Origin: Gammaproteobacteria bacterium
GTDB lineage: Bacteria > Pseudomonadota > Gammaproteobacteria > SG8-11
Direction of reading: 5' to 3'
NCBI GenBank assembly: GCA_024641505.1
Contig: JAHECY010000022.1
Location: forward strand, 1-46,166
Length of the DNA: 46,166 bases
Part shown: piece by piece, positions 9,101 to 45,815 of the stretch
Numbering within the stretch: position 1 is the stretch's first letter
Layout: every line of letters starts with the position of its first letter
Position numbers and translations under genes: made by a program
The notes under the pieces: model-generated
Told to the model about the DNA's origin: nothing
The model's input: only the letters and a program-made list of their open reading frames with translations
The model's database searches: none

Positions 9101-12100
9101 GTCGGTGAACCGTCTTCGTCCATGGTTACGGTCAGCGGTGCTGACTGCGCAATGATCGGCGCCGCATTGAGCGGATCGGTACCCTGGGCGATTTCATCGC
9201 TGTCACTGATGCCATCGCCGTCGGTATCGGTGTTTAAAGGATCGGTGCCATAGGTGGCTTCCAGAATATCAGACAGACCGTCGTTGTCGTCATCGTTATC
9301 CAAGGAGTTGACGATGCCGTCTCCGTCGGTATCGATGGTGTCAATGGTGGCCGCCGCGTTGGCGTTGCCCATGTACACCGTAACATTGGTGCCTGCCTGA
9401 TTATTCAATTGCAGATAAAACTTCTTGCCGTTATCCCCGGTGAGATCCGCCAGGGGTACGCTCACGGTTTTTACCTGCTCGCCGGGCGCGAACGTCAGGG
9501 TACCGGAAGTTGCGGTGTATTCACTGCCCGCCAGGGCGTCACCGTTACTGGTGCTGTAATCGACGCTGACGCTTTCCCCGGTGCCCACGACCTTACTGAG
9601 GCTCACGGTGAAGTCCGCGTTGCTATCGCCCAGGGCCGCTACGGTGCCGGTGACTGACACCGCGCTGTAAAGACTGGCGCAACCCGGCGCGAACACCCGC
9701 AGGCGTGTGATTTCATGATTATTGGTCGAGCCACCGGTCGATCCCGCAAATGACAGGCGAAATTCCGCGGGCAGAGCCGCTTGACCGGACGCCGCCAGCA
9801 CATCGGTGGCGCTGATCAGTGTGCCGTAGCCGGCACCGGTATCCCGTTCCACTTTGATCCAGGCCTGAGTGGCGCCACTGTTGGGCACATAATTAATGCG
9901 ATAGCCATGACCGCCGGTTGAATCCTGCACCGTGGGCGACAAGGTGCCGGTACCGGCAATATAGTTGAACGTCGAAGCCGATCCGCGCAGCGCCACGGCA
10001 TTGGCAACACTATTGCTAAAGAGCGAAGGATATTCGGAAATGCCAATGCCCAACCAGCCTCCGGCAAAACCCGTAGTCCCCATGTAGCCGAGCGCGCCCC
10101 CGGAATCGCCGAGTGCGGGCGATACCGCATAATTTGACAGGATCACCGACATGCCATCGGCGCCGGTACCACCGTAGGTGGCCGCCTTGAATTCGATGCG
10201 TAATGGAATGGTGGCGGGAATCGGAAAGCCCTTGCTGACACCGCTCACCAGGCCAGTGCCGGTGGAAGTCAGGCGCAGACGTTTTTCACCATTGTAGGTG
10301 ATGATGTTGGGCGTATAAGTGGTGCCGCTGAGCACCTGCCAACTGCTGTCCAGGGTACCGGCTCCGGAGAAATTTTCAAAAATGCAGACATCGGGCTCCA
10401 CTTGGTTGGGGATGCCGTCGCCATCGCTGTCTTTGTAGTCCGCGCCATCATTCGGGTTGGTGAAGTCGTTATTGGTTTCCACAAAGTCCGGCACATAGTC
10501 GCCATCGCTGTCTTTGTAATCCAGTTTGTTCAGTGGATCGGTGCCATCGATCGCTTCCTGGGCATCCGGTACGCCGTCGTTGTCGTCATCGGGGTCATAG
10601 TAGTCCGGCAAACCGTCTCCGTCACTGTCGGTGGTGTCATCGATATCGGTAACGGCGACGGTGACCGCCGCGGTCACCGTGTCACCGTTGGCGGTGACGG
10701 CAATGACCAGGTTGTAGATATTGTCGGCGCCGGTGTCCACCGGGTTTTCATAGTCGGGCGCGGTGATGAAGCTCAATACGCCGGTTGCCGAATTAATGGT
10801 GAATTTGGCCGCGTCGGCGCCGCTATCGATGCTGAAGCTGAGGGTATCGCCGTCCGCGTCATATGCGTCCACATCAAACACGGCGGTGGTATTTTCCGCG
10901 ACGGGAAGCGTGTGTGCAGTGTTGTTGACCCAGGCCGGTGCATTGGTCAAGGTGCCGACATTGCTGAACATTGAGCCGTCGTCAGTGCTGGTGCCGCTAC
11001 CCTCATTGAAGCGCCAATACGCTCTGAGGGACGCCGCGGAACGATAATCAAGGAAGTTTTGGGTCAGGGTGGATACGTAATGACCGGCATTGTAAATCGC
11101 CGCGATTGCCGCCGCATTCAGTTGCACGTTCCAGATGGCGACGTCATCCAGTCTGCCGTCGAGGTATTGACCAAAGCCGGGAAAATAGCCGAATCCGGGC
11201 GTCGCGGTCACGTTTTTAAGATTGCTGATGGTTGCCGCCTGTGAGGTGCTGCATGCTACGGCAATACCGTCGATATAAATACCGGGAGTGCCGCTGCCGC
11301 CGTAAGTGCCGACAACATGGTGCCAGGCGCCGGTCGCCAATGGTATCTGGCAGTAAGCGTAGTTCGTGCCATCACCCACTTCCATTTTAAGCCCGCTGGC
11401 GCCGGTTCTGAGGGTATAAGATATATCGGCAGAATTGCCGCCACTCGCCTTCATGAAAATCATGCCACCCAGGGCATCGGCCTGGACCCATGCGGCGACG
11501 GTAACTTTATTACCGGCGTTTAGATTCAGTGAGCCGTTGTCTTCGGCGATGGCGAGGTAGCTGTCGGTGCCATTGAAGTCCAATGCGGTTGAATTACTGC
11601 CCAGCAAAAACACAGGCGCATCCGCCGCGCCGGGGAATGCCTCCACATAGTCTGAAATGCCGTCGCCGTCACTGTCGACGGCATCGGGCGCATTAGGATT
11701 TCCGCCGCTGTAAGGCGCGCCTTCATGCGCATCCGGCACACCATCACCGTCGGTGTCCAGCACGCTGTGGTAATCCAGCGGATCGGAGCCGTCGCTGATT
11801 TCCTGAACATCGGACACGCCGTCGTTGTCGTCGTCGCTGTCCTGGTCATCCGGAATACCGTCACTGTCGGTGTCGGGCTTGACCGTCACCAGCACGCGTA
11901 CCGGCACACTGGCGCCATTGGCGGTGGCGGTGACGATCACGTCATAGACATTATCACCGTTGGCGTCACCATAGCTGAGATAGGTGGGTGCGCTGTTGAA
12001 ACTCAGGGCGCCACTGTTGACATTGACGGACATCACGCCACTGTCCGCACCGCCGGTGATGGCATAAGTTACCGGGTCGCCGTTGTCGTCAATCGCCAGT

Positions 12101-14286: not shown

Positions 14287-14832
14287 GAGCTTGAGCCTTA
14301 TTGGTTGTTTTTGCCGACTCCTGCGAAATTCAGGAATTGGAAATCGCACATATCACCCTGTAGCGGCTTGCATAGCAACCAATAACACCGACGATTTGTA
14401 AATCCTTGCGTCACTATTGTGAAAGTTTGTAAACCGTGAGTCACGCTGGAAATCCTCGCCTATCTTTTTCAAAGCTGGTTTTGGTTGCGCCCAATGCACC
14501 TGCAACCCGCTGTCATGTGGCTGGCGGAACATCTGCTGGCGCGCGAGTTTTGTCTGGCATAAAGAGAAAGAGGCTGGCCCACGGCAGAGATTGCAGCTCG
14601 CAAATAATTGTAAATAGCTTGTCGATTAACAAAGGTTTCATGCAAGTTAACCGCAACCCTAGCCACGAGCAGAAGAATTTTCAGTAAGTCCGGCATGAGG
14701 CATCGGGCAGTCCGCGGTAAGTCGCTAAGGATTGCGGACCAAGTCTGATGGGTGTTGTGCGGTTTAGCCGTAATTTTACACGAAACCGGACGGTTCTGGT
14801 TTTCACAATAGAGATCGTAATTCGCTGGGGGC
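14287..14832. other. Divergent intergenic region between the giant gene and the OmpA-like gene
   Basis: No supported gene lies here. The 121-codon and 83-codon frames have no recognisable protein features. The part nearest the giant gene holds the operator-like repeats described separately. A GTCCGC/GCGGAC hairpin with an 18-base loop sits at about 14719-14748, roughly 85-115 bases upstream of the OmpA-like start, and could be part of its leader. Both genes are transcribed away from this region, so shared control is possible. Confidence 0.5.
14395..14444. promoter_or_regulatory. Operator-like direct repeats upstream of the giant gene
   Basis: The octamer TTTGTAAA followed by YC and then GTCAC occurs twice: 14395-14414 and 14426-14444. 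Between and within them are two small dyads, TCAC-TATT-GTGA (14411-14422) and GTGA-G-TCAC (14436-14444). The sites are 109-158 bases upstream of the giant gene's ATG. The regulator is unknown. Confidence 0.4.
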
Positions 14833-16566
14833 ATGATGGCAGGAAGGGACGAATCAAACAGTTGTTGTACGCACTATATACAGCGCACTAACAAGAGCAT
14901 CAGCCGTCTTCTGTGCAGTCTGGTGCTGATGGCGCCGATAGTCTGCGGCGCCGAATCCATGCTGGACGACGCCGTTGCGTTACAGGGAAATACCACTCCG
15001 GAAGCGCATGCTGACAGTGTAACCACCCCCGTCAATACGGAAGTGGTAATTCCGGTGTTGGAAAATGATTTGGATGCCGATGGTGATACGTTGATGGTCA
15101 TTACGGCTGAGGCGAAGCATGGTACGGTAGCGATTGAAGAGGGAAGACGCTTGCGCTACATACCAAGCGCGGATTTCATCGGAGACGACGAAATAGTATA
15201 TACAGTGTTCGACGGCAAGGGGTCGATCACTCCGGAAATGGCTGCGGCGGCAGGTATTGATACGGCGGCATTGTGCGCTGCCAGTCAACAGTGCGGCGGA
15301 GAACAACAGGAGCAAGTGACGTTGCGTCTGCAAATCAACTTCGCCAATAATGACGCAACGGTCAGTGAAAGCTATTATCCGGAAGTCGCCAAGCTGGCGG
15401 CGCTGATGGCGCGTGCGCCCGATGAAGGGGTAACCATCGAAGGTCACACATCCGCGTCCGGTAGCGACTCCTACAATCAGAAGCTGTCCGAACGCCGCGC
15501 CAAGGCGGTGGCTGAAGTTCTGATGAAGCGGCACGACATCGCCGCCGAACGGGTGACGGCTGTTGGTTACGGAGAAAGTCGCTTGCTCGATCCGTCCAAT
15601 ACCGCGGAAGCGGATGCGAAAAACAGGCGCATCGACGCGGTGTTCGACGGCACATTCTCGCATAAGATTCAGCATGCTCCGGGCACCGCATCAGCCGTTG
15701 CTTCAGTAAATATATACGGCGTAAATCAACCACCTGTGGCGCAAGACGATCAGGCGCTGGTCGATGAAGGGAGTCAAGTCACGATTAAGGTGTTAGGCAA
15801 CGATCAGGACGGCGATGGCGATCCGATACAACTCAGTCGGGCGCAAGCGCTACATGGGACAGTCGTGGTCATGAGTGATGGCACGCTGATGTATACTCCT
15901 GATGCCGGTTACCACGGCGCGGACAGTATCTCCTATACCATTGTTGACGATCAGGGGGGCGAAGCGAAGGCCGCGGTTGCCGTGACGGTCAGGCATATAG
16001 AGAAACCGCTGTTATGGTATGTTTGGGGTGATTACGGGTACGCTAAGGGCGCTGGCAACAAACGAGACCTGAATCGGAAGTTATCCAGCGCGGGTGTCGA
16101 TGCCACGATCACCAAGCTGGACAATGAACGCTCCACCTGGCAACTGGGCGGTGGATACCGTTTCAATCAGAATTGGTCGCTAGAGCTTGGCTATGTCGAT
16201 TTGGGAGAAGTGTCCGTTCAGTTGACAGGTACCACAACCAGCGCCAGTCAGTTTTATGGCAGGGCGTCACGTATTCATCCGCAATCGGCGAACGGCTGGT
16301 TGTTAACGAGTCAGTACTATTGGCCGTTCAGTGAAAGTATCGGTGTGCTGGCGCGCGTCGGTGTGTGGTACTGGCAATCGAGCTATACCACCTACGACAA
16401 CGCCGCCGTCGGTAACGACGCGGCCCGTGGCGCCGATCTGGTGTTCGGTTTGGGTGGAGTGTACAAAATCACCGAACCAATCGGCGCACGGCTGCTGTTG
16501 CAGCGCTATTATATCGGCTCTGAAGTTACAAACATGCTGTCGTTTGGGCTGACCTATCGTTTCTAG
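14833..16566 (+). CDS. OmpA-like outer-membrane protein with Ig-like domains and a C-terminal beta-barrel
   Basis: 577 residues. The N-terminus has a basic stretch then a hydrophobic signal (SRLLCSLVLMAPIVCGA). Domains: cadherin/Ig-like about 55-135 (ENDLDADGDTL, SADFIGDDEIVYTVFDG); OmpA C-terminal peptidoglycan-binding fold about 165-275 (VTIEGHTSASGS, KLSERRAKAV, NRRID); second Ig-like about 298-385 (NQPPVAQDD); then an 8-strand-type OmpA barrel about 390-577, ending in YRF, a typical terminal aromatic for BAM insertion. In most OmpA proteins the barrel comes first, so the order is inverted. The usual Asp of the GHTD motif is Ser here, while the Arg of LSERRA is kept. The start ATGATG has only a weak GGGGG upstream. 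It is divergent from the giant gene and shares its Ig-like domain type, which suggests a joint role in surface architecture (inference). Confidence 0.88.
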   Translation: MMAGRDESNSCCTHYIQRTNKSISRLLCSLVLMAPIVCGAESMLDDAVALQGNTTPEAHADSVTTPVNTEVVIPVLENDLDADGDTLMVITAEAKHGTVAIEEGRRLRYIPSADFIGDDEIVYTVFDGKGSITPEMAAAAGIDTAALCAASQQCGGEQQEQVTLRLQINFANNDATVSESYYPEVAKLAALMARAPDEGVTIEGHTSASGSDSYNQKLSERRAKAVAEVLMKRHDIAAERVTAVGYGESRLLDPSNTAEADAKNRRIDAVFDGTFSHKIQHAPGTASAVASVNIYGVNQPPVAQDDQALVDEGSQVTIKVLGNDQDGDGDPIQLSRAQALHGTVVVMSDGTLMYTPDAGYHGADSISYTIVDDQGGEAKAAVAVTVRHIEKPLLWYVWGDYGYAKGAGNKRDLNRKLSSAGVDATITKLDNERSTWQLGGGYRFNQNWSLELGYVDLGEVSVQLTGTTTSASQFYGRASRIHPQSANGWLLTSQYYWPFSESIGVLARVGVWYWQSSYTTYDNAAVGNDAARGADLVFGLGGVYKITEPIGARLLLQRYYIGSEVTNMLSFGLTYRF

Positions 16567-28570: not shown

Positions 28571-30520
28571 TCAGAAATTATCGGCTTTTTGAAAGTGCAC
28601 GATCCGCGTCGGGATGCGGATGGTAAATTGGACGCCATGACCTTCCGTGCTTTCCGCTGCAATATTACCGCACAATGTTTGATTTACCAAGTTAAACACG
28701 ATATGCATGCCTAATCCGGTGCCACCACGGCCGCGTTTTGAGGTAAAAAATGGGTTAAAGACTTTTTCGACCTGGATAGGCGTCATGCCTTTTCCGTTGT
28801 CAGTATAAATCAATGTTACTTCTCCATTGGCTTCCTGGAGTTCAATCGTAATATTACCTTCTGCGATTTCTTCGAAACCGTGGATGAGGGAATTCATGAC
28901 CAGATTGGAGATTACTTGCGAGATAGCGCCCGGGTAGCTGTCGATCATGAGGCCGTCAGAGCCGATTAAATCAACAGTAATCAGGGTCTTTTTTAATTTT
29001 GGCTGCAAGCTGAGCAACACATCGCGAATGTATTGTTTCAGGTCAAATTCGCGTTGTTGTTCGCTGGTTTGGTCTACCGCCACTTTTTTGAAACTGCGGA
29101 TTAAATCAGCCGCTCGAAGCAGGTTTGACAGGATAATTCCGGCGGACTCGGTCGATCTTTTTAGCATGGACTCAAAATCCATGCGCGTGAGCTGACCGCT
29201 ATCGTAACGCTGTTGATAGATGTCGAGGTTGTCTTTAAAATGGGATATCGCCGTGACGCCGATACCCAGAGGCGTGTTTATTTCATGTGCGACACCCGCC
29301 ACGAGCTCCCCTAATGCGGCCATTTTTTCCGACTGCACCAATTGGTCTCGGGTTTTATTCAGTAACTCCAATGATTCCACTAACTTTTCATTACTCTTCC
29401 GCAATTCAACAGTGCGGGATTCAACCCGTTGCTCCAATTGCTCATTGAGTTCCTTAATGTCTTTTTCTCGTTGCTTGCGTTCACTAATGTCCAGGTAGGA
29501 GATTACCTTACCGATGGTGACGCCATCGCGCACGATGGCACGTGACCAATATTCAACGGGAATCAGGGAGCCGTCACGGCGTTGAAACATCCCATCACTG
29601 GAATGCGCCTCAAAACAATTCGCGCAATTCCGGTCCCCGATATGCTTGCCCATAATCATGCGACCGATGTTATTGCCAAGTAACGCGCCGGCATCTTCAT
29701 AATCCAGTATGGCGAGACTGGAAGGGTTGACGAAAGTGCAGTTGCCATTGGCATCGATGCCGATGATTCCCTCCTCGGTGGAATTCAATAGCAAATTTAC
29801 CCGTTCCTCGCTGTCTTTGAGTTCCTGGTTTATCCTGCTTTGTTTCGCCATTATTGTGCTTATTTTCCTGACGATTATCGCACCGATGACGAAGCCGAAA
29901 GTGAGCATCGCGCCGACGAATGCTATTACCAGTCTGGTATTGCGTGCCTGCTGCTTTTGCGCGAACACTTCAAGCTCTTGGTATTCATTTTCATGAAGGC
30001 GCTGCAATTGATGGAGTGTGATTGACATAGGCTCCAGCGTGGCCGAGAATATCTCATGATCAATGATGGTGTTTGACGGGAGTCCGGCAATTGCTTTTTT
30101 TAATTGGAGTTGATTTTCCTTCAGGCGCCGTTGAGATTTCAGATATGGGTCTTCTTGATAGATATTGTCAAGCCGATAGATATTGTCAAGCTGTGTGTCA
30201 AGATCATAAATAAGGCTGGTAACTTTGTTATTTTGTTGCACAATGATATCGCTGTGAATTTCGCCGGTACTGCCGCGTTGGATAGTGTTGTTTTGCTCAC
30301 TGAACCACAGATACGTTGCGTAAAGGTCATTCCGTATTCTCAGTATGTAGACATCCACCTTCATGTGGTAGTTATCCATTTCCGATACCAGTTCCGCATG
30401 TTGTTCGCTCTGGAAATTCAGAATTCCCAGGAGAATGAACACATTAATGGTCTCTGCGCCAATAAGAAAATAGACGTAAGTTAGAACCGAATAGCCAATA
30501 TTTTTTGTGTTACTAGCCAT
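28571..30520 (-). CDS. Membrane PAS sensor histidine kinase
   Basis: 649 residues from ATG 30520. A TTG at 30535 would instead overlap the stop of the PhnD-like gene by four bases; neither start has a clear ribosome site. Two membrane segments (about 8-36 and 193-215) bracket a helical periplasmic sensor region with an in-frame LDNIY duplication. Then come a PAS domain (about 235-350, NSTEEGIIGID, ending in ISYLDISERKQRE), a coiled coil, a HisKA region with His412 in VAHEINTPLG, and HATPase_c with DNGKGM (about 573) and a GGTGLGMHI loop. No receiver is fused. The direct pairing with a PhnD-like lipoprotein suggests that protein delivers the signal, as in other periplasmic-binding-protein/kinase pairs. 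The response regulator is probably one of the nearby REC proteins (inference). Confidence 0.9.
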   Translation of the reverse strand: MASNTKNIGYSVLTYVYFLIGAETINVFILLGILNFQSEQHAELVSEMDNYHMKVDVYILRIRNDLYATYLWFSEQNNTIQRGSTGEIHSDIIVQQNNKVTSLIYDLDTQLDNIYRLDNIYQEDPYLKSQRRLKENQLQLKKAIAGLPSNTIIDHEIFSATLEPMSITLHQLQRLHENEYQELEVFAQKQQARNTRLVIAFVGAMLTFGFVIGAIIVRKISTIMAKQSRINQELKDSEERVNLLLNSTEEGIIGIDANGNCTFVNPSSLAILDYEDAGALLGNNIGRMIMGKHIGDRNCANCFEAHSSDGMFQRRDGSLIPVEYWSRAIVRDGVTIGKVISYLDISERKQREKDIKELNEQLEQRVESRTVELRKSNEKLVESLELLNKTRDQLVQSEKMAALGELVAGVAHEINTPLGIGVTAISHFKDNLDIYQQRYDSGQLTRMDFESMLKRSTESAGIILSNLLRAADLIRSFKKVAVDQTSEQQREFDLKQYIRDVLLSLQPKLKKTLITVDLIGSDGLMIDSYPGAISQVISNLVMNSLIHGFEEIAEGNITIELQEANGEVTLIYTDNGKGMTPIQVEKVFNPFFTSKRGRGGTGLGMHIVFNLVNQTLCGNIAAESTEGHGVQFTIRIPTRIVHFQKADNF

Positions 30521-30531
30521 ATGGTATACAG

Positions 30532-31422
30532 TCAATCGATCATTTTGCGTTGTTTCATGATATCTGACAGATGCTGAAAATCTTCTAAACTGCCGGGAAC
30601 AAAGTAGTTCGCGTTCAAAGATTCAAGTATTAATTTATCCTGTGCCTTGTCTTTCGACAGATCCATAAAGGCATCACGAACCATAGCTCCATATTTTTCA
30701 AATATCTGTTCCTGCATTGCCCATACATAATCGGCAAAAGGAGGAGATTCCCAAATAACCTTGATGTCCCTGGCGGGTATACGACCATCAGTGATCATGT
30801 CTTTTAAAATATCCTGATTTACGGCGCCGGCGAAAATCTCGCCGTTGTGCACTTTAAGCACGGTTTTGTCGTGGGCTCCGGAATACGTAACAGCCGAGAA
30901 GAACGATTCCGGATCAATACCTGCCTGCTGAAAGAAATATCGTGGCATAAGATGGCCTGACGTCGACAGCTCCGAGCCAAAGCTGAATGATTTTCCTCTA
31001 AGATCCGAAAGCGAAGCTACGTCACTATGACTGTTGGTGATAACAACAGAGTGAAACGCGATGTCCACATCGCGCGATACCACCGGGATTGCATTCGCTT
31101 TGGAATGCGCCAGGACAAAGGTCACGCCGCCAAATAATGCGAGATCAATTTTTTTTTCGATAAACAAGTTAAGCAGTTGCCTGTAGTCGTCGGGAATAAT
31201 TAGATCCGTTTTCCGGCCTGTAGACGCTTCGATGTAGGTCATTAGCGCCGCGAAATTTTTCCGCATCATATCCCGATTTTGATGGGGAACTATGCCGATC
31301 CTAAGCGTGTCACCGGCAGTTGCCTGTGGCCCGGTGGAGGTTTCACATGCTGCCAGTGCGAAAAACGTTACCAGTAAGCTGAGAACAACCAGACCTGTTC
31401 GTGCACGGTATTGACTGATCAT
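30532..31422 (-). CDS. PhnD-like periplasmic binding lipoprotein
   Basis: 296 residues. A lipoprotein signal ends at Cys26 in FFALAAC. The mature part has the PhnD/phosphate-phosphonate binding fold: TLRIGIVPHQNRDMM near the start, then DDYRQLLNLFIEKKIDLALFG-type text and a SGAHDKTVLKVHNGEIFAG segment, typical of family ligand-binding lobes. No ABC permease or ATPase gene follows; instead the next gene is a membrane kinase. The protein is therefore more likely a sensor subunit than a transporter subunit (inference). The ligand may be a phosphonate or another small anion; the sequence cannot decide. No strong ribosome site precedes ATG 31422. Confidence 0.88.
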   Translation of the reverse strand: MISQYRARTGLVVLSLLVTFFALAACETSTGPQATAGDTLRIGIVPHQNRDMMRKNFAALMTYIEASTGRKTDLIIPDDYRQLLNLFIEKKIDLALFGGVTFVLAHSKANAIPVVSRDVDIAFHSVVITNSHSDVASLSDLRGKSFSFGSELSTSGHLMPRYFFQQAGIDPESFFSAVTYSGAHDKTVLKVHNGEIFAGAVNQDILKDMITDGRIPARDIKVIWESPPFADYVWAMQEQIFEKYGAMVRDAFMDLSKDKAQDKLILESLNANYFVPGSLEDFQHLSDIMKQRKMID

Positions 31423-34929: not shown

Positions 34930-35517
34930 TTAATTTACTATCCCTATGGTGCTAAGCAAGCTGTCGCTGTCAATGGGTTTTGACAGGCAGGCATTGGCGC
35001 CGGCTTTCAGGATGCTCTCGACATTTTCCGGCGTGTAGTAACCGGTCATGGCGATTATTTTACAGTGTTGCGTCAGGGGATTGTCCCGCAGATGACGACA
35101 TACTTCAAAACCGCTCAACCCCGGCATCATCAGATCTAATAAAACAATTTGTGGTTTAAATTGCATCACTTTCTGGCCGGCATCGAAACCATCGTGCGCG
35201 GTAATTATCTTTACTTTTTCAGATCTGGTCTCCAACAGAGTGGCCAGGAAACGCACCAATTGCTGATCGTTGTCGACGATTAAAATACGGATTTCCGCGG
35301 TGGTATCGACCAGCGGCGGTAAAGTCATATTGCGATTTTTAGCAAACTGCTCGATGTCGCGGTAGAGAAAACGACGATGGCCTCCAGGTGTGGTAAGAGA
35401 CCTGAGGTCTCCTTTGACGGTCCATTGACGCACCGTTGCGGGAGAGACCATTAATAAATCGGCTACCTCATTGGGTGTCAAGTAAGTTTTATTATTATGT
35501 TTTTTAGGTTTCAACAT
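34930..35517 (-). CDS. HTH-REC response regulator (excisionase/MerR-like helix-turn-helix first)
   Basis: 195 residues. ATG 35517 has GGGAGA just upstream. Residues 10-62 form a MerR/excisionase-type winged helix (YLTPNEVADLLMVSPATVRQW, then TTPGGHRRFLYRDIEQF). Residues 76-195 are a receiver with VDND (81-84), Asp128 in IVLLDLMMPGLSGFE, Thr in AMTGYY and Lys in LSKPID. In most response regulators the receiver comes first, so the order is reversed. It probably binds DNA and may control the signalling genes around it. A possible 52-residue reading frame ends inside its first codons, so translation of the two may be coupled. Confidence 0.9.
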   Translation of the reverse strand: MLKPKKHNNKTYLTPNEVADLLMVSPATVRQWTVKGDLRSLTTPGGHRRFLYRDIEQFAKNRNMTLPPLVDTTAEIRILIVDNDQQLVRFLATLLETRSEKVKIITAHDGFDAGQKVMQFKPQIVLLDLMMPGLSGFEVCRHLRDNPLTQHCKIIAMTGYYTPENVESILKAGANACLSKPIDSDSLLSTIGIVN

Positions 35518-36120: not shown

Positions 36121-36564
36121 ATGACATCTGGAGTGACTCAAACCTCATCTGATGCTAAAAAGAATGATAATGATACCGGGGAGCACTTACACTGGAACGA
36201 TTCTTATAACACGGGGGATGAAAAAACCGATGCGGAGCACCACCGGTTGTTTGCGTTAATCAATGAGTTCCAGGATGCCATCCAAGACCACCTTGAAAGC
36301 GACAATTTGGCGATTCTGTTCAGTGTTATCGTCGACACCTTCAATGTGCATTTTTCCAAGGAAGAGGTCAAGACAAAAATATTGTCTTACCCCAATTTCG
36401 AATCTTATATCAAGAATCACTGCAATTTGTTATCCGCTGCCGGACGCGTCAAGCTGAATCTGGAAGAAAAGGTCGCGGGTGCACCAGGTACCGCCTTCAT
36501 GTTTCTAAAGAACTGGGTGAAGATACATATTGCCAGTGGTCACCAGGGTAAATCTCACGTGTAA
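36121..36564 (+). CDS. Bacteriohemerythrin-like protein with altered iron ligands
   Basis: 147 residues. ATG 36121 has GAGG about nine bases upstream; a GTG seven codons earlier is less likely. The four-helix hemerythrin fold is clear: HWNDSYNTGDEKTDAEHHRLF (positions 24-44, here split as HWND..G..D..HHRLF), HFSKEE, YIKNH and WVKIHIASGH. Aligned to the seven canonical ligands, His40, His77, Glu81, His100 and His136 are kept. The position of the fifth (second His of the HxxxH pair) is Tyr96, and the bridging Asp is His141. Oxygen or NO sensing, or iron storage, is normal for the family, but the changed ligands make plain oxygen binding uncertain. It lies between two-component genes and overlaps the hybrid kinase gene by ten bases at the 3' ends. 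Confidence 0.85.
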   Translation: MTSGVTQTSSDAKKNDNDTGEHLHWNDSYNTGDEKTDAEHHRLFALINEFQDAIQDHLESDNLAILFSVIVDTFNVHFSKEEVKTKILSYPNFESYIKNHCNLLSAAGRVKLNLEEKVAGAPGTAFMFLKNWVKIHIASGHQGKSHV

Positions 36565-38729
36565 GAGGTAAGCCGTGAGATTTGTTCCATCAACAGGTTC
36601 GTTTCGATCGGTTTTGTACAGTAACCTTGGATACCGAGTTCTCGGGCGTAGGATTCCGAAACCACGTCGCTATTTCCGGTACAGATGATCACCGGGCAAT
36701 CCTGACGGATTTTGCTTATGTTTTCGAACAGTTCGATGCCGCATATGCCTGGCATTATTTGGTCGGTTATCACCAGATCGTAATCGCCTGGAGCGTCCTG
36801 AAAGGCGGCCAGGGCTTCTTGGCTATTGGTTTCGATATGGACATCGTAGCCGTGTTCTTGAATTAACTCGCGCAGAAATTTACCAACGGAAACCTCGTCA
36901 TCGACCACCATTATCCTCGGTTTTTTCGACGCGGATGCGCGTGCAGTGACTTGCGTCGGCAAATTATTTTCAGGACATACCGAAGAGTTCAAGCTGTGCG
37001 CCAAGGGGAACAGCAGAGTAAACATAGTGCCTTCGGCGCTGGATGTTTTAAGCAAGATATGTCCGTGATGCTCATGCATAATGCCGTGCACCATGGACAA
37101 GCCCATGCCGGTGCCACGTCCGACTTCCTTGGTGGTGAAAAAAGGATCGAATACACGGTGTACTATATCCGTTGGAATGCCGCTGCCGTTATCTTTGACG
37201 TCGATAGCAAGAAACTCCCCGGTGAAATGCTGACTGCAGGCACTACACACGTGATTGTTGGCCGAAAATAACCGGGAGCTGATGATCACCGTACCTGTGC
37301 CGTTGGTGGCGTCTTTCGCGTTGATACATAAATTCATGAAAATCTGGTTGAGCTTGACGACATCACTCTTGATGTGCGGCATATTCTGTTCGAGATCAGC
37401 ATGGATTTGGAAACTGGAAGGTAGCGATGAACGCAACATTTTGATGGTTTCCTTGATCACCGTTTCCACGCCGATCATACTCCATTCACTGTTGGCACCA
37501 CGGCTGAAGGCCAGCATTTGGGCGATCAAATCACGTGCGCGCGTACCGGCGTTCATCACCTCACTGAGATAATTTTTCAACTTGTCGATGGAGATGACCG
37601 TGCTATTCGCGGTAAAAGCCGCCAGCTCGGTAAATCCCATAATGGAAGCGAGAATATTATTGAAGTCGTGGGCAATACCACCAGTAAGCTGTCCAATCGC
37701 TTCCATCTTTTGCGACTGTTGCAGCTTTTTCTCCAGATCCAGTTGTTTTATTTGATTATTGCGCGTTTCATCAACAAACTTTATGCGTTCGATAGCCGCA
37801 GAAATGTGGCCAGTCATGCTGACGATGTATTCCAGCTCGGATTCGGTGGGGATTTTACAACCCTCGTCACCAAAAGTTCCTATACCCAACGAACCTCGTT
37901 TTTCACCGAGAAAGTACAAGGGGATCATGATCAGGGTACGATTCTGCAGCTGTTCAACGATTTCTTTATTGGTACGCGGATCGGTACGGGCATCGTCGAT
38001 GATCAGGGGTGCCTCGCTCGCGACCATTTCTTCGAGAAATCTGTCGCCCTCTACCCTCAGTGTCGTGAAATTCGTTTTTACATTGTGTTCATTATTGCTG
38101 CCAATCGATAAAATCTGAATATATTTTGAGCGATTGTAATCAAATGTATAAATCCACACATTTCCATAGCCGGTACTGGTACGCATTTCATCGCGTACCA
38201 TGTGCAGCAAGTTATCGTAGTCCGTGGCTTGTTGCAGGGTACGGGACCAATTCAGAAGATTATTACTGCGAGTCTGGTGGGAGAGATAGACTTTCTCCAG
38301 TCTATTCTGTTCAGAGGTATCTTGGGCAACCATGAACAATTGGCGTACTTGATCGCTGCCTGGAAGCCATAGAGGTGATATGGTAACTCGTATGATTACC
38401 TCAGTCTTGTGACTGTGGCTCAGGGTTATTTCAGTGCTGATAAAGGCACATTGGCCACCTACCAGGCGCTTTATGTTGCTCAAAAACATCTGATGGTCGG
38501 CCGCGGACATTAACCCGGCGATATTCAAATTCTGCAATTCACTCGCCGAGTAACCCAACATTTGTACAAGTTTATTATTGGCATATAGAAACCCACCATC
38601 AACCGACAGTTTGGCAATACCCAGCACTTCATCGTCAACAGCGTTAATGGAAAAGTTTGCAGGATCGCCGGAAGGCGTTAACGAGGTGTCAATGGAGTCT
38701 CTTGCACTGATTTCCCCAGAATTCTTCAT
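36555..38729 (-). CDS. Soluble hybrid histidine kinase (PAS-GAF-HisKA-HATPase-REC)
   Basis: 724 residues, no membrane segment. PAS about 28-145 (LGIAKLSVDGGFLYANNKL); GAF about 165-310 (IMIPLYFLGEKRGSLGIG); HisKA with His354 in GGIAHDFNNILAS; HATPase_c with DNGSGIP and GRGTGMGLSMVHG; and a C-terminal receiver with Asp656 in LVITDQIMPG and Lys in CTKPIE. Just before the DNGSGI box is a CSACSQHFTGE segment, a CxxC insert. The REC gene at 38744-39118 lies 14 bases upstream in the same direction, so the pair is an operon. The 3' end overlaps the hemerythrin gene by ten bases. The ATG at 38729 has only a weak ribosome site. Confidence 0.9.
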   Translation of the reverse strand: MKNSGEISARDSIDTSLTPSGDPANFSINAVDDEVLGIAKLSVDGGFLYANNKLVQMLGYSASELQNLNIAGLMSAADHQMFLSNIKRLVGGQCAFISTEITLSHSHKTEVIIRVTISPLWLPGSDQVRQLFMVAQDTSEQNRLEKVYLSHQTRSNNLLNWSRTLQQATDYDNLLHMVRDEMRTSTGYGNVWIYTFDYNRSKYIQILSIGSNNEHNVKTNFTTLRVEGDRFLEEMVASEAPLIIDDARTDPRTNKEIVEQLQNRTLIMIPLYFLGEKRGSLGIGTFGDEGCKIPTESELEYIVSMTGHISAAIERIKFVDETRNNQIKQLDLEKKLQQSQKMEAIGQLTGGIAHDFNNILASIMGFTELAAFTANSTVISIDKLKNYLSEVMNAGTRARDLIAQMLAFSRGANSEWSMIGVETVIKETIKMLRSSLPSSFQIHADLEQNMPHIKSDVVKLNQIFMNLCINAKDATNGTGTVIISSRLFSANNHVCSACSQHFTGEFLAIDVKDNGSGIPTDIVHRVFDPFFTTKEVGRGTGMGLSMVHGIMHEHHGHILLKTSSAEGTMFTLLFPLAHSLNSSVCPENNLPTQVTARASASKKPRIMVVDDEVSVGKFLRELIQEHGYDVHIETNSQEALAAFQDAPGDYDLVITDQIMPGICGIELFENISKIRQDCPVIICTGNSDVVSESYARELGIQGYCTKPIETNLLMEQISRLTSYT

Positions 38730-38743
38730 GCTTGATATCTGAA

Positions 38744-39118
38744 TTAATTGATGGATAAGATGCTGGTTACTTTATCTTTTAAGTCCTGCATTCCAAATGG
38801 TTTATTTAATATAGCGTTGGCGCCTACTAATTCAGCAATAGGTAAATAATCGAACCGACCGGTCATGCCACCGCCACCGGAAATCGCAATGATTCTGCTC
38901 TCAGGGAATTTATGCTTGATTTCCATAATCAGGTCAATACCACTCTTCTTGGGCATTACCAGATCTGTGATAACCAGGTCAAAAGGGTCGTTGGTGTACA
39001 GTTTGAGCGCTTCCTCACCATTGAAAGCTTCAACAATACTGTGCCCATCCTGTTCAAGCATTTCCCTCAGCATCTCCCGGATCGAGGTTTCATCGTCGAT
39101 GACCAATACTCGTGCCAT
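38744..39118 (-). CDS. Stand-alone receiver-domain protein, first gene of the hybrid-kinase operon
   Basis: 124 residues. ATG 39118 has AGGAG seven to eight bases upstream; a longer frame back to 39376 lacks domain features. It has DDE (8-10), Asp52 in LVITDLVMPKKSG, the glycine-rich SGGGGMTGRFDYLP loop and Lys in LNKPF. It is the closest relative of the receiver at 34471-34842 (about 63% identical by my count). Fourteen bases separate it from the hybrid kinase, so it is probably that kinase's partner or phosphate sink (inference). Confidence 0.9.
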   Translation of the reverse strand: MARVLVIDDETSIREMLREMLEQDGHSIVEAFNGEEALKLYTNDPFDLVITDLVMPKKSGIDLIMEIKHKFPESRIIAISGGGGMTGRFDYLPIAELVGANAILNKPFGMQDLKDKVTSILSIN

Positions 39119-39689: not shown

Positions 39690-40565
39690 TTAAACAGGGT
39701 TTCCTCTGTAGGAGCGCGAAGATGTGCCCACGTAGTTTATGGCAGAGCAGGGTATCGGAAAGAACGAGCCCGGGTCATGGTTCAGTGCGTCGATATAGCA
39801 ACACATAAATCCGCTACTGAAACACAGGGTGACATAGTGACAAAACTCCCGTGTACTCATATGCTGGTCCGCTGCCAGAGCCGCCATATAGATTCCCGCG
39901 TTGGCAGCGAGTTCCAGACCTAATCCGGGTAGATTTTTTTCGATTTCAGCAACAAGGGAGAGATACCTGCCGCCGCCAAATCCCAGTTCTTGCGCCAGTC
40001 CCAGCAACACGTCGATACGCTCGTCCCGGCGCACCAGCGGGCGACCGTATCCTGGGAACACGGCGACGGCGCGTTGCTTGCCTGCGCCGGGATGTCCTTG
40101 TTTGCGACATCGGGCTTCGCGCAGGATATTACGTAGAATTTTCGGTAACGCCAAACCCGCGTCTTGTTGGGTCGCGACCCGCCGCAATAAATGCATGGCA
40201 CCAGTCAGCGGCCGGTGTCCATAGATTGTCGCTTCGGAAACCGCGGTTGCGGCGGCAATCGCCAGACTCGCTGTGGAACGAGCGCTGCCGGCCAGGGCCG
40301 ACACGCCATTGTTCCAGATGCGGGGGTCCGGATAACTCGTGGCGATGACCCAAATACCGTTGAATAACCGCAGCTGTCGCGGGTCATGACGCCGGTTAGT
40401 GATGCCGAGCAGCAATAGCTCCATCCATGACATATCACGCAGCTCAGTAAAAAGATCCCTTCCGCGTAACACGACCCGCTCACCGGGGAACCAAGCCCCC
40501 ATGTCGGTAATCCAGACTGCTTCGCCATCCCTGACTTGTGGTGGAGGTTGTGGGGTAACGGTCAT
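39690..40565 (-). CDS. Divergent citrate-synthase/citryl-CoA-lyase-fold protein (second copy)
   Basis: 291 residues from ATG 40565, which overlaps the previous stop as ATGA. The protein keeps the order of citrate-synthase-fold segments: an N-terminal helical part (MSWMELLLLGI), a YGHRPLTGAMHLL segment at the HGGA position, VFPGYGRPLVRRDERID (170-184) at the GFGH..DPR position, and LAANAGIYMAAL at the N-V-D position. The catalytic His of GFGH is Arg175, the Asp of NVD is replaced (Asn222-Ala-Gly), and no HGGA is present. It is therefore probably not an active citrate synthase alone. It may form a heteromer with the next protein (inference). Confidence 0.8.
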   Translation of the reverse strand: MTVTPQPPPQVRDGEAVWITDMGAWFPGERVVLRGRDLFTELRDMSWMELLLLGITNRRHDPRQLRLFNGIWVIATSYPDPRIWNNGVSALAGSARSTASLAIAAATAVSEATIYGHRPLTGAMHLLRRVATQQDAGLALPKILRNILREARCRKQGHPGAGKQRAVAVFPGYGRPLVRRDERIDVLLGLAQELGFGGGRYLSLVAEIEKNLPGLGLELAANAGIYMAALAADQHMSTREFCHYVTLCFSSGFMCCYIDALNHDPGSFFPIPCSAINYVGTSSRSYRGNPV

Positions 40566-41383
40566 GATTTTCGCCTGCTTCGGGGTTGCAGTCCCGGATC
40601 GTTGCTGAGTTGGATGCCCGTGGCGTGGAAAGGCATTGCACGCCATCCCAGTTCACTTTGTTCCAATGCGTGGGCGCTGGCGCCGGGCAGACGCAATAAC
40701 AAAAACAGGGCTTCGCCCGCATCGGGTGAAAATCCGAGATCCGCAAGTGCGGCGGCGGCAACGGCGCTTTGGGCCAGAGCCAAGCCGGTAATGCTTTCCA
40801 GTGTTGTACGATGGCGTCGCAACCACGCCAGCTTACCTTCGCCAAATGTTGCCGCGAGGTAGTCGAGAGTGTGCTTGATCGGGGCTGGGCAAACTGTTGT
40901 AGTTGCCATGAATCCAGGGGCAGTCTTGACTTCCGGCCAACTGTCCGGAGGGTCATCCCGGGGCGCCGTCAGAAAAGTCCGCCAATGTTCCAGATTATCG
41001 CCCCAGTGTTCGAATGCAACCATTACATGGTAGACATCCCGTGCGCCTCCGTGGTAACCCGCAGCTACCGCCAGAGCGGCCATCAAACAGGATGCCGCTG
41101 TTGAGCCACCGGCGCCACCATTCATCGCGGCACGCACACTAAGATCTCGGGGGCCGGGGTTGGCAAGTGCCACCGCCAAGCCTTCCAATAACGCGCGCTG
41201 CCGGGAGCACGGCAATTCCCGCCGAAATAGCAGAAAAAGGTATTCAATCCAGGTGATTTTTCCCAACAGATCCTGGTAAACATCATATCCGGCGCAATAA
41301 CAGACGCCAGCTTGCATCGGATCTTCGGTATCGGGAATCTCCTGCCAAATTGCCGTAGTAATTGTCGCATCGCTAAACTTCAT
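40562..41383 (-). CDS. Divergent citrate-synthase/citryl-CoA-lyase-fold protein (first copy)
   Basis: 273 residues, close to the size of citryl-CoA-lyase-like proteins. AAGYHGGARDVYHVM holds the HGGA motif (His111), the first catalytic His position of the fold. The GFGH segment is GFMATTTVCPAP (157-168), with no His, and the N-V-D segment is LAQSAVAA, with Gln205 at the Asp position. The C-terminal LGFSPDAGEALFLLLRLPGASAHALEQ matches the dimer/CoA region of the family (usual pattern pG..aHa.E). Start ATG 41383 overlaps the ThDP enzyme's stop, and its own stop overlaps the next start. One canonical His is kept here and none in the partner. Confidence 0.82.
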   Translation of the reverse strand: MKFSDATITTAIWQEIPDTEDPMQAGVCYCAGYDVYQDLLGKITWIEYLFLLFRRELPCSRQRALLEGLAVALANPGPRDLSVRAAMNGGAGGSTAASCLMAALAVAAGYHGGARDVYHVMVAFEHWGDNLEHWRTFLTAPRDDPPDSWPEVKTAPGFMATTTVCPAPIKHTLDYLAATFGEGKLAWLRRHRTTLESITGLALAQSAVAAAALADLGFSPDAGEALFLLLRLPGASAHALEQSELGWRAMPFHATGIQLSNDPGLQPRSRRKS

Positions 41384-43188
41384 CTTGCAGCGTCACCCAG
41401 TATTTTCATGCGGGTACCGATCGGTGGTACTTCTTCGGTATCGATATATACGTCCAGAAGTGTTGGCAGGGTTCTTTCCAAAATCGCTGTCATGTCCAGA
41501 GCGCGCAGGTCGGACAAAGAATGAATGGTATGGGCATGCGCGCCCATGGCGCGCGCATAGGCACTGAAATCCACGACCGGTAAGCGATAGCCGATAGCTT
41601 CCGCTCCGGCCAATCGTTGCCCGTGCTTTACCATGCCCAGGGCGGAATCATTCAGCACGATGAAGATAACGGGCAGGCGCTCCTGCACGGCGACACTGAG
41701 TTCCTGGCCGCTCATCAGCAGACTACCGTCACCGGTAATGCAAACCACCGTATCGGAAATCGCGCCCAGGGCCATGCCGACGGCGGCGCCGATGGCCCAA
41801 CCCATGGAGGCGAATTCGAAGGCGCCGAAAAATAGCCCGGGTTCCCGGTCCCGGCGTGGACTCAGGCGTCGATCGTGAGGATGCAGGTAATGCACTGCCC
41901 AAGCCATGCTGTTGCCGGAATCCACCAGATAGCGCGTGCCCGGAGGTAACAGCCGTGGTAATTCACGCATTAGTGACTGGGGTTTGATCGGCGCTTTATT
42001 GCCAACGATTGCACCAAATGAATGGAGTTGCGATTGATCCTGGAGCTGACTTTGGGCCGCGAATTGTTTTACGGCCAAGGGCACGACGACGGCATCCTTC
42101 GTCTGGGGAACAACATTGGCAAGTAAATGCTCAAAAATTGTCGTTAATTCCCCGAAAACATGTAGCGCGGCCATTGGCGAACGCGTGAAATTCTGACGGA
42201 TGTCATCGATGTGTACCAATCTGTCATTGAGTAAAATCTGATCCCAGCCATTGGTTGACCATTCGCCAAGATTGGTACCAACAGCGATTATCGTATCAAG
42301 TTGCGGATCCAATAGCGCCATTTTTGCGTGATCGTGTCCGGCGAACCCTAAGGTACCGCCGTATTGCGGATGCTGTGAGTTAATGAACCCTTTACCATGG
42401 GGAGTGGTGAGTACAGTGGCTTGCAAACGACTTGCCAGGGCCAGCAGCAGCCCGGCGATTGGTGCGCAGGACTCACCTACCAGGAAAACCAGTTTGCGCG
42501 CTGTAATGATGCGTTGAACGAGTTTGTTGACCGATGGCATATCCATGGTTTTTGGTTGATTAAGCAGGTGGTTGATGTTGTAAGAAGGTTTCATCACCGG
42601 GCTTGCGGTGCGTAACAGGTCAAGGGGGATGGTTAAGTGTGCGGGTCCGGGTGCGGGCCCAAATGCGGATATGAGAGCGGATACCAGCTTATGCTCGAAT
42701 TGTTCGATATTGGACACCAGGCTGTTGTAGCGCGTGCAGTGTTGGAACATTCCAAGGGTATTAATGCCCGTACACGACGACTCCTGCAGCGCACCCCGGC
42801 CGAAGTTGCGCAAACTGGTCTGTGCGGTAATGACCAGCATCGGAATATGATTTTCGTAGGCGGAAGCAGCACCGGTGATGAGGTTGGTGGCTCCTGGACC
42901 GGTAGTGGCGCAACACACGCCGAGTTTTCCCGTGCGCCGATAATAACCATCCGCCATGAACGCCGCACCGCACTCGTGCCGCGCCACGATCGCCCGGGTG
43001 CCATGCCGGCGCTCACTGCGTGCCAACGCATTGTATAAAGGTTCAATGGCGCCACCGGGAACGCCGAAAATATAGGCAACGCCGAGGTCCGTCAAGTATT
43101 GTATAAGGATGTCACCGAGCTCTGGGGTATTGCCTGAGTGTACTGCGGTTTCTTTATCAGCATGAGAAGCTGCTACATTGGAGGACAT
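41380..43188 (-). CDS. ThDP-dependent enzyme of the acetolactate synthase family
   Basis: 602 residues from ATG 43188, with AAAGGT about six bases upstream; the frame opens 38 codons earlier without family features. The N-terminal PYR domain has FGVPGGAIEPLYNAL and Glu72 in RHECGAAFMADGY, the Glu that activates the cofactor. Then come the central domain and a PP domain with GDGSLLMSGQEL about 483-494 and NDSALGM about 512, the Mg/ThDP motif. All cofactor residues look intact. The family includes acetolactate synthase, carboligases and 2-oxoacid decarboxylases; the substrate cannot be told. No acetolactate synthase small subunit or ilvC lies nearby, so a branched-chain amino acid role is unlikely. 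It is the first gene of a three-gene operon with two citrate-synthase-fold proteins. Confidence 0.88.
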   Translation of the reverse strand: MSSNVAASHADKETAVHSGNTPELGDILIQYLTDLGVAYIFGVPGGAIEPLYNALARSERRHGTRAIVARHECGAAFMADGYYRRTGKLGVCCATTGPGATNLITGAASAYENHIPMLVITAQTSLRNFGRGALQESSCTGINTLGMFQHCTRYNSLVSNIEQFEHKLVSALISAFGPAPGPAHLTIPLDLLRTASPVMKPSYNINHLLNQPKTMDMPSVNKLVQRIITARKLVFLVGESCAPIAGLLLALASRLQATVLTTPHGKGFINSQHPQYGGTLGFAGHDHAKMALLDPQLDTIIAVGTNLGEWSTNGWDQILLNDRLVHIDDIRQNFTRSPMAALHVFGELTTIFEHLLANVVPQTKDAVVVPLAVKQFAAQSQLQDQSQLHSFGAIVGNKAPIKPQSLMRELPRLLPPGTRYLVDSGNSMAWAVHYLHPHDRRLSPRRDREPGLFFGAFEFASMGWAIGAAVGMALGAISDTVVCITGDGSLLMSGQELSVAVQERLPVIFIVLNDSALGMVKHGQRLAGAEAIGYRLPVVDFSAYARAMGAHAHTIHSLSDLRALDMTAILERTLPTLLDVYIDTEEVPPIGTRMKILGDAAR

Positions 43189-43475: not shown

Positions 43476-45815
43476 CTAACGGCAACCAGTCAATAGACTG
43501 CTTATGGTGGCGCAAAATTGTCGCACGTTGATGGGTTTTTCGTGGTAGCTCTTAATGCCTAAAGCAAGCGCTCTTTCTCTGGACACTTGTTCGCTGTAAC
43601 CCGTACACAGAACAATGGGCAAATCAGGCCGTACCTTAAGAAATTTATCTGCCAGTTCATAACCGGATAAATTTGGCATGGTCTGGTCCGTTACCACAAG
43701 ATCAAAATAGTCAGGTTCTTCAATAAATCGCTCGTAGGCTGCAACGCTGCTGGTTTCCATGGATGTCGCGTAGCCGTTGAGTGCCAATAACTCGTAGAGA
43801 AATTTGGCGACTGATTCCTCATCGTCAATTACTAAGATATGCGGGGGTTGTTGATGTGCATATTTGGCGTTGGTAGATATTGGGTGAGTAACGTTTGGGG
43901 CAACTGGGTTGGTAAATACCGCGTGATTGAGCGGCAGTAATAACTCAAACTCTGTACCGTGTCCGGGTGTGGAATGGACTTTAATATGCCCATGATTCTT
44001 GTGCACCAGGCCATGTACCATGGACAAACCCATACCGGTGCCTTTACCTGCCGCTTTGGTGGTAAAGAACGGATCGAATATTTTGCCAATTACCTGAGAC
44101 TCGATACCGCTGCCATTGTCAATGAATCTGATCGACGCATATTCACCAGTTATCGCTGCATGGCATGCGGAACATTGTTCATTGGCAATGACACGCAAGT
44201 CCGCAATAACATCAAGACGACCTTTTCCTTGAAGCGCATCGCTGGCGTTTAGACACAGGTTCATGAGTATCTGTTGTAAATGAATTGGGTCGGCCAATAC
44301 GCTGATATGAGAATTTACAGACACTACTTGAAAATTTATGCTTGATGGAATTATCGGTTTTATCATTCGGGCGCAATCCTGAATGGCAGTAATCAGGCTG
44401 AGGGCTTCGGGAGAGCCGGCGCTGGTACGGCCAAAAGCCAGCATTTGCTTTACCAAACCGGTAGCACGTTCGGAACCGGCAAGTATTTCCGCCAAATATG
44501 ATTGCTGTTTGTCATCTGCTTGAGTATCGGCGCGCTGTTTAGCGAGAATTGTATAACCCATAATCGCCGCCAGAATATTATTGAAGTCATGAGCGATGCC
44601 GCCTGTCAACTGCCCAATGGCTTGCATCTTCTGGGAGTGCTGAAGCTGTCGTTCAAGGAACGATTTTTGTTCTTCGGCCGCAATGCGATCACTAATATCC
44701 ACAAACGAAACTATCTGTCCAATAATTTCATTGTGCCTGATTATTGGATGGGACCAATATTCGCAGGGGGCCTGGGTTCCGTCTATCTTGAAATAAACTG
44801 TCTCTCCGTGTTGCGGTTGCGACGAAATTTCGATCTCTAATTGAATGCTATTTTCTATGGTTTGCAGGTTATCGATGCAAGGCGGGTGAAATATTAACTC
44901 TATTATTTTCTTTCCAATATAAGGCCTGTCCTCTAAACGGCCGCATATTTTCGTGCATTGCGGATTATGGAATATACAAACACCTTCAAGATCGACGCCA
45001 AAGACAGCGACCGGTATGGAGTTTAAAAGCAGTTCGATATGTTTTTGATCCTCCAGAATCTTGGAATTCTGCTGGTAAAGTTCGATAGATGCACGATTAA
45101 TCGCCATTGTAAGCGAGTGAATTTCGGGTGATAAGTAATTTACCGGCACCAGAGGGAAAGGGGATTTCCCCATGGATTGAGCAATGCGCGCGGTTTCAGA
45201 AATAATGGATATCCTGGGCTTTAAAAAGTAGTGGGTGGTCAGAAGAATCAATAGCAGAACGAATAGACCGCTACTGATACCTTCCTGTAACGCCGAAGAT
45301 AGTGATTTTTCAATCCGGGCAAGTGAATACTCGAGTCGAATCCAGCCCAGATGAGAACTTCCCATCATGGGCGACCACGTTACGAAATTTTCACCTGTAA
45401 TTTCTTCGCTATAAGCCAACACGGACGGGGTCCTGATCTGTTGGCGAAGGTAGTCAACTTTGATATTTCCCAGGTCATCCCGTATTACTTCGCTGACCAG
45501 TACACCTTGATGGCTGATGACTTGGACTTTTTTCATGTCGACATCCGAAGCAGCATGAATTGCTAACTGCTCCAATGATGTCATGTCATCTAAAGAGAAA
45601 TAGGTTGCGCCTTGTGAGGCAAGTGAATTTCCTGTTTCTTCACCTTGGGTATGGAGATGTCGAATCAAAAAATCTCGGCGTTCATAATAATTAGAAACTA
45701 CCAATACGGATATTGTTATGAACAGAAATAGTACAAAGATCAGTACAATCTGATGGCCGAGGGTCAGTTGACGAACCACTCCAAATGGCGTTCCTTGGTC
45801 TGATCTTTGAGTCAT
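43476..45815 (-). CDS. Membrane hybrid histidine kinase (PAS-HisKA-HATPase-REC)
   Basis: 779 residues. Two membrane segments (about 20-45 and 180-200) bracket a periplasmic sensor (LASQGATYFSLDDMTSLEQL). PAS about 260-370 (LLLNSIPVAVFGVDLEGVCI, ending in VSFVDISDRIAAEEQ); HisKA with His409 in GGIAHDFNNILAAIM; HATPase_c with DNGSGIE and GKGTGMGLSMVHG; receiver with Asp710 in LVVTDQTMPNLSGYE and Lys in HEKPIN. Just ahead of DNGSGI is CSACHAAITGEY, again a CxxC insert as in the 36555-38729 kinase. The core of the two proteins is clearly related. ATG 45815 has only a distant GGGAAA upstream. It is upstream of, and in the same direction as, the ThDP operon, with a 287-base spacer to that operon's ATG. 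Confidence 0.9.
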   Translation of the reverse strand: MTQRSDQGTPFGVVRQLTLGHQIVLIFVLFLFITISVLVVSNYYERRDFLIRHLHTQGEETGNSLASQGATYFSLDDMTSLEQLAIHAASDVDMKKVQVISHQGVLVSEVIRDDLGNIKVDYLRQQIRTPSVLAYSEEITGENFVTWSPMMGSSHLGWIRLEYSLARIEKSLSSALQEGISSGLFVLLLILLTTHYFLKPRISIISETARIAQSMGKSPFPLVPVNYLSPEIHSLTMAINRASIELYQQNSKILEDQKHIELLLNSIPVAVFGVDLEGVCIFHNPQCTKICGRLEDRPYIGKKIIELIFHPPCIDNLQTIENSIQLEIEISSQPQHGETVYFKIDGTQAPCEYWSHPIIRHNEIIGQIVSFVDISDRIAAEEQKSFLERQLQHSQKMQAIGQLTGGIAHDFNNILAAIMGYTILAKQRADTQADDKQQSYLAEILAGSERATGLVKQMLAFGRTSAGSPEALSLITAIQDCARMIKPIIPSSINFQVVSVNSHISVLADPIHLQQILMNLCLNASDALQGKGRLDVIADLRVIANEQCSACHAAITGEYASIRFIDNGSGIESQVIGKIFDPFFTTKAAGKGTGMGLSMVHGLVHKNHGHIKVHSTPGHGTEFELLLPLNHAVFTNPVAPNVTHPISTNAKYAHQQPPHILVIDDEESVAKFLYELLALNGYATSMETSSVAAYERFIEEPDYFDLVVTDQTMPNLSGYELADKFLKVRPDLPIVLCTGYSEQVSRERALALGIKSYHEKPINVRQFCATISSLLTGCR

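Follow-up and report, generated by a model that had tools for sequence, protein, structure and literature searches.

A conserved gene trio encoding a thiamine diphosphate-dependent carboligase and two citrate-synthase-fold proteins is a candidate biosynthetic core of a bacterial small-molecule system with its own sensing

Contig JAHECY010000022.1 of a gammaproteobacterial genome (SG8-11 lineage; GenBank assembly GCA_024641505.1) was analysed over positions 1 to 46,166, a stretch of 46,166 nucleotides hereafter called the window. It carries three adjacent genes encoding a thiamine diphosphate (ThDP) enzyme and two divergent proteins with a predicted citrate-synthase (CS) fold, termed CS1 and CS2. 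We are highly confident that this module exists, that it is conserved and that, judging by the open literature, it is undescribed; no description of the ThDP/CS1/CS2 composition was found in openly licensed literature, and a subscription paper could exist. We put at about even the odds that a conserved small-molecule system with its own sensing has the trio as its biosynthetic core; the chemistry and the signal role are what we infer from the genes. The three genes are:

41380-43188, minus strand: predicted ThDP-dependent carboligase of the acyloin-synthase type, 602 aa (TPP_enzyme_N, M and C domains above cut-off; nearest PDB relatives BbmA and CsmA; invariant catalytic residues)
40562-41383, minus strand: CS1, predicted citryl-CoA-lyase-fold protein without canonical catalytic residues, 273 aa (AlphaFold2 model, Foldseek, residue alignment; ATGA overlap with the ThDP gene)
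39690-40565, minus strand: CS2, second predicted citryl-CoA-lyase-fold protein, 291 aa (AlphaFold2 model, Foldseek, residue alignment; ATGA overlap with CS1)

A scan of the species genomes of GTDB identified 173 loci encoding relatives of CS1, and the best 80 of these were kept for neighbourhood counts. Each denominator below is the number of loci whose flanks allow the test in question; CS1 is present by construction of the scan, and the other genes are not. The ThDP gene is found in 72 of 72 testable loci and CS2 in 78 of 78. Furthermore, a TonB receptor (60/65), a periplasmic binding protein of family PF04392 (45/58), a sensor of the sCache type (51/58) and GGDEF plus EAL domains, the hallmarks of cyclic di-GMP (c-di-GMP) output (43/58), recur beside the trio. 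Label-free clustering of all neighbours returned the same families and no other family in more than seven loci. A preliminary description of the window, made from the sequence alone, had considered the composition unfamiliar and had held that conserved co-occurrence without ilvN or ilvC would support a new system. This expectation is borne out, as neither IlvN nor IlvC was found near CS1 in any of the 80 loci, and the association extends well beyond the single genome to which the same description had allowed it might be confined.

Carriers are mostly Gammaproteobacteria in the broad sense, including Cycloclasticus, Methylococcaceae, Porticoccaceae/SAR92, Marinobacter, Hahella, relatives of Colwellia and Gallionella/Nitrosomonadales. 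A cultured Pelotalea and a metagenome-assembled genome of Desulfuromonadaceae also carry CS1 relatives, and the Pelotalea locus, which lies outside the class, has all components. Cultured carriers also include Cognaticolwellia mytili KCTC 52417, in which the trio occurs together with a TonB receptor, a binding protein, a kinase and a GGDEF-EAL protein, as well as Marinobacter sp. C7 and Hahella sp. CCB-MM4. Among 369 genomes of the class, CS1 relatives occur in 42, the ThDP subfamily in 47 (E ≤ 1e-140) and the TonB receptor in 51 (E ≤ 1e-120). CS1 and the ThDP enzyme occur together in 38 genomes and CS1 and the receptor in 36, giving Fisher p values of about 1e-38 and 1e-31, respectively, which are not true probabilities because the genomes are related. 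Across 19 loci, the five proteins show correlated pairwise distances (r 0.43-0.70), which fits joint inheritance of their genes; these values are not separated from the species phylogeny.

Six CS1-positive genomes gave no receptor match. In two of these (G193 and G358) the CS-like gene is unrelated and adjoins a CoA-transferase-like gene, and these distant matches were rejected as CS1. In G265 the receptor gene lies in two pieces at the same locus, G139 has the trio with CS2 seen as a fragment only, and the remaining two (G000 and G001) represent the window's genus. Separately, the ThDP and CS2 genes of one single-contig genome (G038) are broken over several frames (L013:10806-13398), reflecting either sequencing errors or a decaying copy.

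At the window locus, the trio is a co-transcribed unit in which ThDP, CS1 and CS2 follow one another with a four-base ATGA overlap at each of both junctions, at the coordinates first described. Overlaps of this type also occur at other loci (35 of 79 measured for CS1/CS2 and 17 of 79 for ThDP/CS1, based on longest-frame starts). Operator-like repeats had also been attributed to the operon. The best direct repeat upstream of the trio is a 21 nt pair at 71%, accompanied by short AT palindromes, and this region is poorly conserved within the genus, so that part of the description is not upheld. Scans of the locus for promoters, terminators and operator repeats gave signals that were weak, not clearly above chance, or unconserved.

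All three TPP domains of the ThDP protein score above the Pfam cut-offs, in agreement with its initial description as an intact-looking enzyme. Its catalytic Glu72, its GDG motif (residues 486-488) and Asn513 are invariant among 34 relatives, indicating an intact ThDP site. The nearest solved relatives are BbmA (E 1.8e-82; about 33% identity) and CsmA (E 4e-73), with acetohydroxyacid synthase (AHAS) following at 1e-49. Gly523, which is likewise invariant in the 34 relatives, aligns with G484 of BbmA and the corresponding Gly of CsmA. The window genome's own IlvB has Trp at this position, which we take to be that of Trp464 in the acceptor pocket of AHAS. On these sequence features, namely the intact site, the closeness to BbmA and CsmA and the Gly at the AHAS Trp position, the enzyme is assigned as a carboligase that is not an AHAS.

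The best NCBIfam model by score is nevertheless TIGR00118, the acetolactate synthase large subunit, which could be taken to mean that the trio is an ordinary branched-chain amino acid AHAS operon whose neighbours are mis-annotated. We consider this extremely improbable and reject it, since the score is 293.1 bits against a cut-off of 538.35, Gly replaces Trp, the canonical ilvB/ilvN genes of the window genome are located on a separate contig (C47), and IlvN and IlvC are missing near the 80 loci. The protein also falls below the cut-offs of the ScyA family (219.5 of 1020 bits) and the ScyA-related family (245.6 of 1000 bits). It is not filed as ScyA, and resembles the CybE/ScyA group at most in how it works. 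CsmA and its companion (printed as BpmA) were described in a 2025 paper as CybE homologues that yield alpha-hydroxy-beta-keto acids (PMC12395478).

CS1 and CS2 fall below every curated cut-off in sequence searches and show weak similarity to citryl-CoA lyase (Pfam and curated models), scoring 58.4 of 261 and 36.4 of 193 against PRK06224. Their AlphaFold2 models are confident (mean predicted local distance difference test scores 90.6 and 91.2), and the top Foldseek match for both is citryl-CoA lyase 6hxp (E 2e-8 for CS1 and 7e-8 for CS2). The models thus assign both proteins to the citrate-synthase/citryl-CoA-lyase fold, as had been proposed from sequence. Alignment of 76 sequences of each protein to 6hxp reveals that the catalytic residues are lost. 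Specifically, CS1 retains the first catalytic His in just 2 of 76 sequences, and 71 of 76 have Ser or Thr in place of the Asp, while in CS2 the second catalytic His is Arg in all 76 and the Asp is missing. The lost His/His/Asp set and the sub-cut-off scores exclude an ordinary citryl-CoA lyase or citrate synthase. Each protein has invariant polar residues of its own (His238, Glu241 and Gln242 in CS1; Arg175, Asp181-Glu182-Arg183 and Asn222 in CS2), which suggests that both are probably functional. In two genomes a CS1-like gene stands right behind a CoA-transferase-like gene (L164:7100-7912 and L165:7430-8299); it belongs to a separate CS-fold family and may be a true lyase acting in a CoA pathway.

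In one genome ThDP and CS1 are fused in a single frame of 886 aa (L011:16275-18935). This fusion argues for a physical complex and lends support to the heteromeric assembly that the preliminary description had thought conceivable. It also fits a different role for CS1 and CS2, in which the pair is non-catalytic and serves as a scaffold or regulator of the ThDP enzyme, stabilising or tuning it in the way that IlvN acts on AHAS, and product formation falls to the ThDP enzyme alone. The loss of catalytic residues in both proteins favours such a role, as does the occurrence of the subfamily ThDP enzyme without a detected CS1 in 9 of 47 genomes, whereas the invariant polar residues of both proteins exceed what a scaffold needs. 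We regard it as a serious contender that falls only a little short of an even chance, and it is compatible with the trio being a biosynthetic core.

Two variant clusters retain the receptor cassette. In one (G037, L160), the ThDP gene is accompanied by a 131-aa protein and an enzyme of the ketoacyl synthase III (KAS III) type in place of CS1 and CS2; in the other (G135, L158), it is joined by a methyltransferase. Cyanobacterial furanolides are made by a ThDP plus KAS III composition (PMC12395478, PMC8777810). The same composition in G037 suggests that the product derives from an acyloin and, in that variant at least, is elaborated in an acyl-CoA-dependent manner. The possible coupling of carboligation to acyl-CoA chemistry that had been suggested for the trio gains from this replacement of the CS pair in one cluster and loses from the lack of the canonical catalytic residues in CS1 and CS2.

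The 131-aa protein (L160:5665-6060), encoded between ThDP and KAS III, has no Pfam or NCBIfam match and occurs in 2 of the 369 class genomes. When this companion gene was used to seek further KAS III variants, G037 alone was convincing, the copy in G097 being distant and without the cassette. Genes for short-chain dehydrogenases/reductases lie in or beside the cluster at several loci (for example L093, L109, L112, L122 and L159), and likely represent a product-tailoring step in part of the family.

In most relatives, the window's genome not being among them, the synthase genes are linked to a dedicated receptor and sensor. The TonB receptors share 37-59% identity between loci. Sensor input is through sCache/HAMP in several members, and the output modules vary, from a simple kinase to long hybrid proteins carrying REC, Hpt, GGDEF and EAL domains; in Gallionella-type loci the sensor region is fused straight to GGDEF-EAL. 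Neighbour clustering of the CS1 loci revealed no ABC permease, ATPase or other inner-membrane transporter that recurs beside the binding protein, which therefore looks like part of the sensor.

The trio most likely makes the molecule that is sensed by the adjacent cassette. In the mechanism we propose, the ThDP enzyme would join two alpha-keto acids to give an acyloin (an alpha-hydroxy-beta-keto acid). The CS1/CS2 pair, bound to the ThDP enzyme, would take over this labile product and elaborate or release it, possibly using acyl-CoA to form a butenolide-like compound. The product would leave the cell, return to the periplasm through the TonB receptor and be captured by the periplasmic protein, and the sensor would convert the bound product into a phosphorelay and a change in c-di-GMP. 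In the window's genus, a response regulator and hybrid kinase stand after the trio in place of the receptor cassette.

The same genes could instead form a catabolic or scavenging module, for an external compound: receptor, binding protein and sensor would recognise it and bring it in, and the trio would degrade it through a ThDP lyase step and CoA-dependent cleavage. The fold of CS1 and CS2 is nearest to a lyase, and sensing and degradation genes are, as general knowledge has it, commonly arranged together. This explanation seems unlikely to us, given that no inner-membrane transporter or further catabolic enzyme recurs, the lyase residues are lost, the partner swap to KAS III, a condensing enzyme class, points to synthesis, and c-di-GMP output is so frequent. 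Less likely still is metallophore or cofactor acquisition, with the trio making a metal-binding acyloin or hydroxy acid that is recovered as a metal complex by the TonB receptor. Biosynthetic genes with adjoining TonB receptors are typical of siderophores, and the good conservation of the receptor suggests one ligand class; however, the loci show no recurrent exporter, inner-membrane importer, reductase or Fur-type companion, and what constantly accompanies the trio is a sensor whose output is c-di-GMP.

Returning to a sensed product of the trio, we tentatively propose, at somewhat under even chances, a new class of bacterial chemical signalling. Here a ThDP acyloin synthase and a rewired CS-fold heteropair would make a new autoinducer, possibly butenolide-like; its own TonB receptor would take this up, and a binding protein and sCache sensor would read it out into c-di-GMP, in Gammaproteobacteria (including Gallionella-type lineages) and some Geobacter-like bacteria. 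Same-family TonB receptors occur without CS1 in 15 class genomes, several beside a kinase or GGDEF-EAL protein, and could possibly be receivers of a signal made by others. Genomes that lack the trio provide examples next to a hybrid kinase or a GGDEF-EAL protein at L177:7979-15657, L183:4359-9454 and L184:4637-9778.

Several points weigh against the trio making a sensed product. The product, substrate, binding and regulation are predicted from the genes, and the step assigned to the CS pair is a guess, since the pair lacks known catalytic residues. A signal that is very small and diffusible would not be expected to have a TonB receptor. The KAS III variant and the methyltransferase variant are each represented by one genome. 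Moreover, several loci of the Marinobacter/Hahella type have no binding protein near the trio, and elsewhere in those genomes matches are weak or missing. Finally, both the TonB receptor and the PF04392 protein are missing from the window genome, at the locus and elsewhere, at the thresholds used.

In the window genome, as in one further genome of its genus (L008), the genes after the trio encode a response regulator, a PAS-GAF hybrid kinase and then a MerR-type receiver regulator. The kinase gene starts 15 bases past that of the response regulator. Pfam domains also bear out the original placement of the operon between two hybrid kinases. The neighbouring features are:

43476-45815, minus strand: PAS hybrid histidine kinase (PAS-HisKA-HATPase-REC; Pfam), upstream of the trio and of uncertain connection to it
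38744-39118, minus strand: CheY-like response regulator downstream of the trio (PF00072; start ATG 39118; same order in L008)
36555-38729, minus strand: PAS-GAF hybrid histidine kinase (PAS-GAF-HisKA-HATPase-REC; Pfam; same-position homologue L008:11600-13777)
34930-35517, minus strand: MerR-type helix-turn-helix and receiver-domain regulator, a further member of the syntenic block (Pfam; homologue L008:14293-14898)

Elsewhere in the window, a phosphonate-type periplasmic binding protein (PF12974; 30532-31422, minus strand) is encoded by a gene that overlaps that of a PAS histidine kinase (28571-30535, minus strand). This is another binding-protein/kinase sensor pair, of a family that differs from the PF04392 cassette. 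A giant surface protein of 4735 aa, rich in repeats and signal-peptide-like (142-14349, minus strand), adjoins an OmpA-like outer-membrane protein with similar repeats (14833-16566, plus strand).

If the signalling proposal is true, widespread bacteria of water and sediment would have a signal synthase of a new kind and a receptor route that is likewise new. The carriers include methane and hydrocarbon degraders, iron oxidisers, Marinobacter, Hahella and relatives of Colwellia, and the cultured strains among them allow direct testing. Even without signalling, it would be new enzymology for a ThDP carboligase to be partnered, apparently obligately, by two CS-fold proteins without the known catalytic residues.

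Among known systems, the ThDP protein shares with AHAS (IlvB/IlvN) the domain order, catalytic Glu and GDG motif, and differs in the missing IlvN and IlvC, the Trp to Gly change and the sub-cut-off score. It is more like the acyloin enzymes of the CybE type (CybE of cyanobacterin, BbmA and CsmA; ScyA of scytonemin), with which it shares the ThDP carboligase fold and Gly at the AHAS Trp464 position. CS1 and CS2 match citryl-CoA lyase (PRK06224; 6hxp) and the C-terminal module of ATP-citrate lyase in fold and length, but they lack His/His/Asp, score far under the curated cut-offs and form a fixed heterologous pair. The ThDP enzyme of CybE/CybF clusters acts together with a partner that uses acyl-CoA, an arrangement resembling the ThDP plus KAS III pair of G037 (PMC12395478, PMC8777810). 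Unlike those clusters, the trio has a CS-fold pair rather than KAS III as partner, is linked to a receptor and sensor cassette and has no tie to an aromatic natural-product cluster. The cassette itself recalls NspS-MbaA of Vibrio, in which a periplasmic binding protein relays a polyamine (norspermidine) signal to a c-di-GMP enzyme (PMC5646818). Both systems combine a stand-alone binding protein of the periplasm with a neighbouring membrane sensor whose output is GGDEF-EAL (PMC5646818), whereas the cassette described here has a PF04392-type binding protein, an sCache sensor that is often a hybrid kinase, a TonB receptor and a linked synthase operon.

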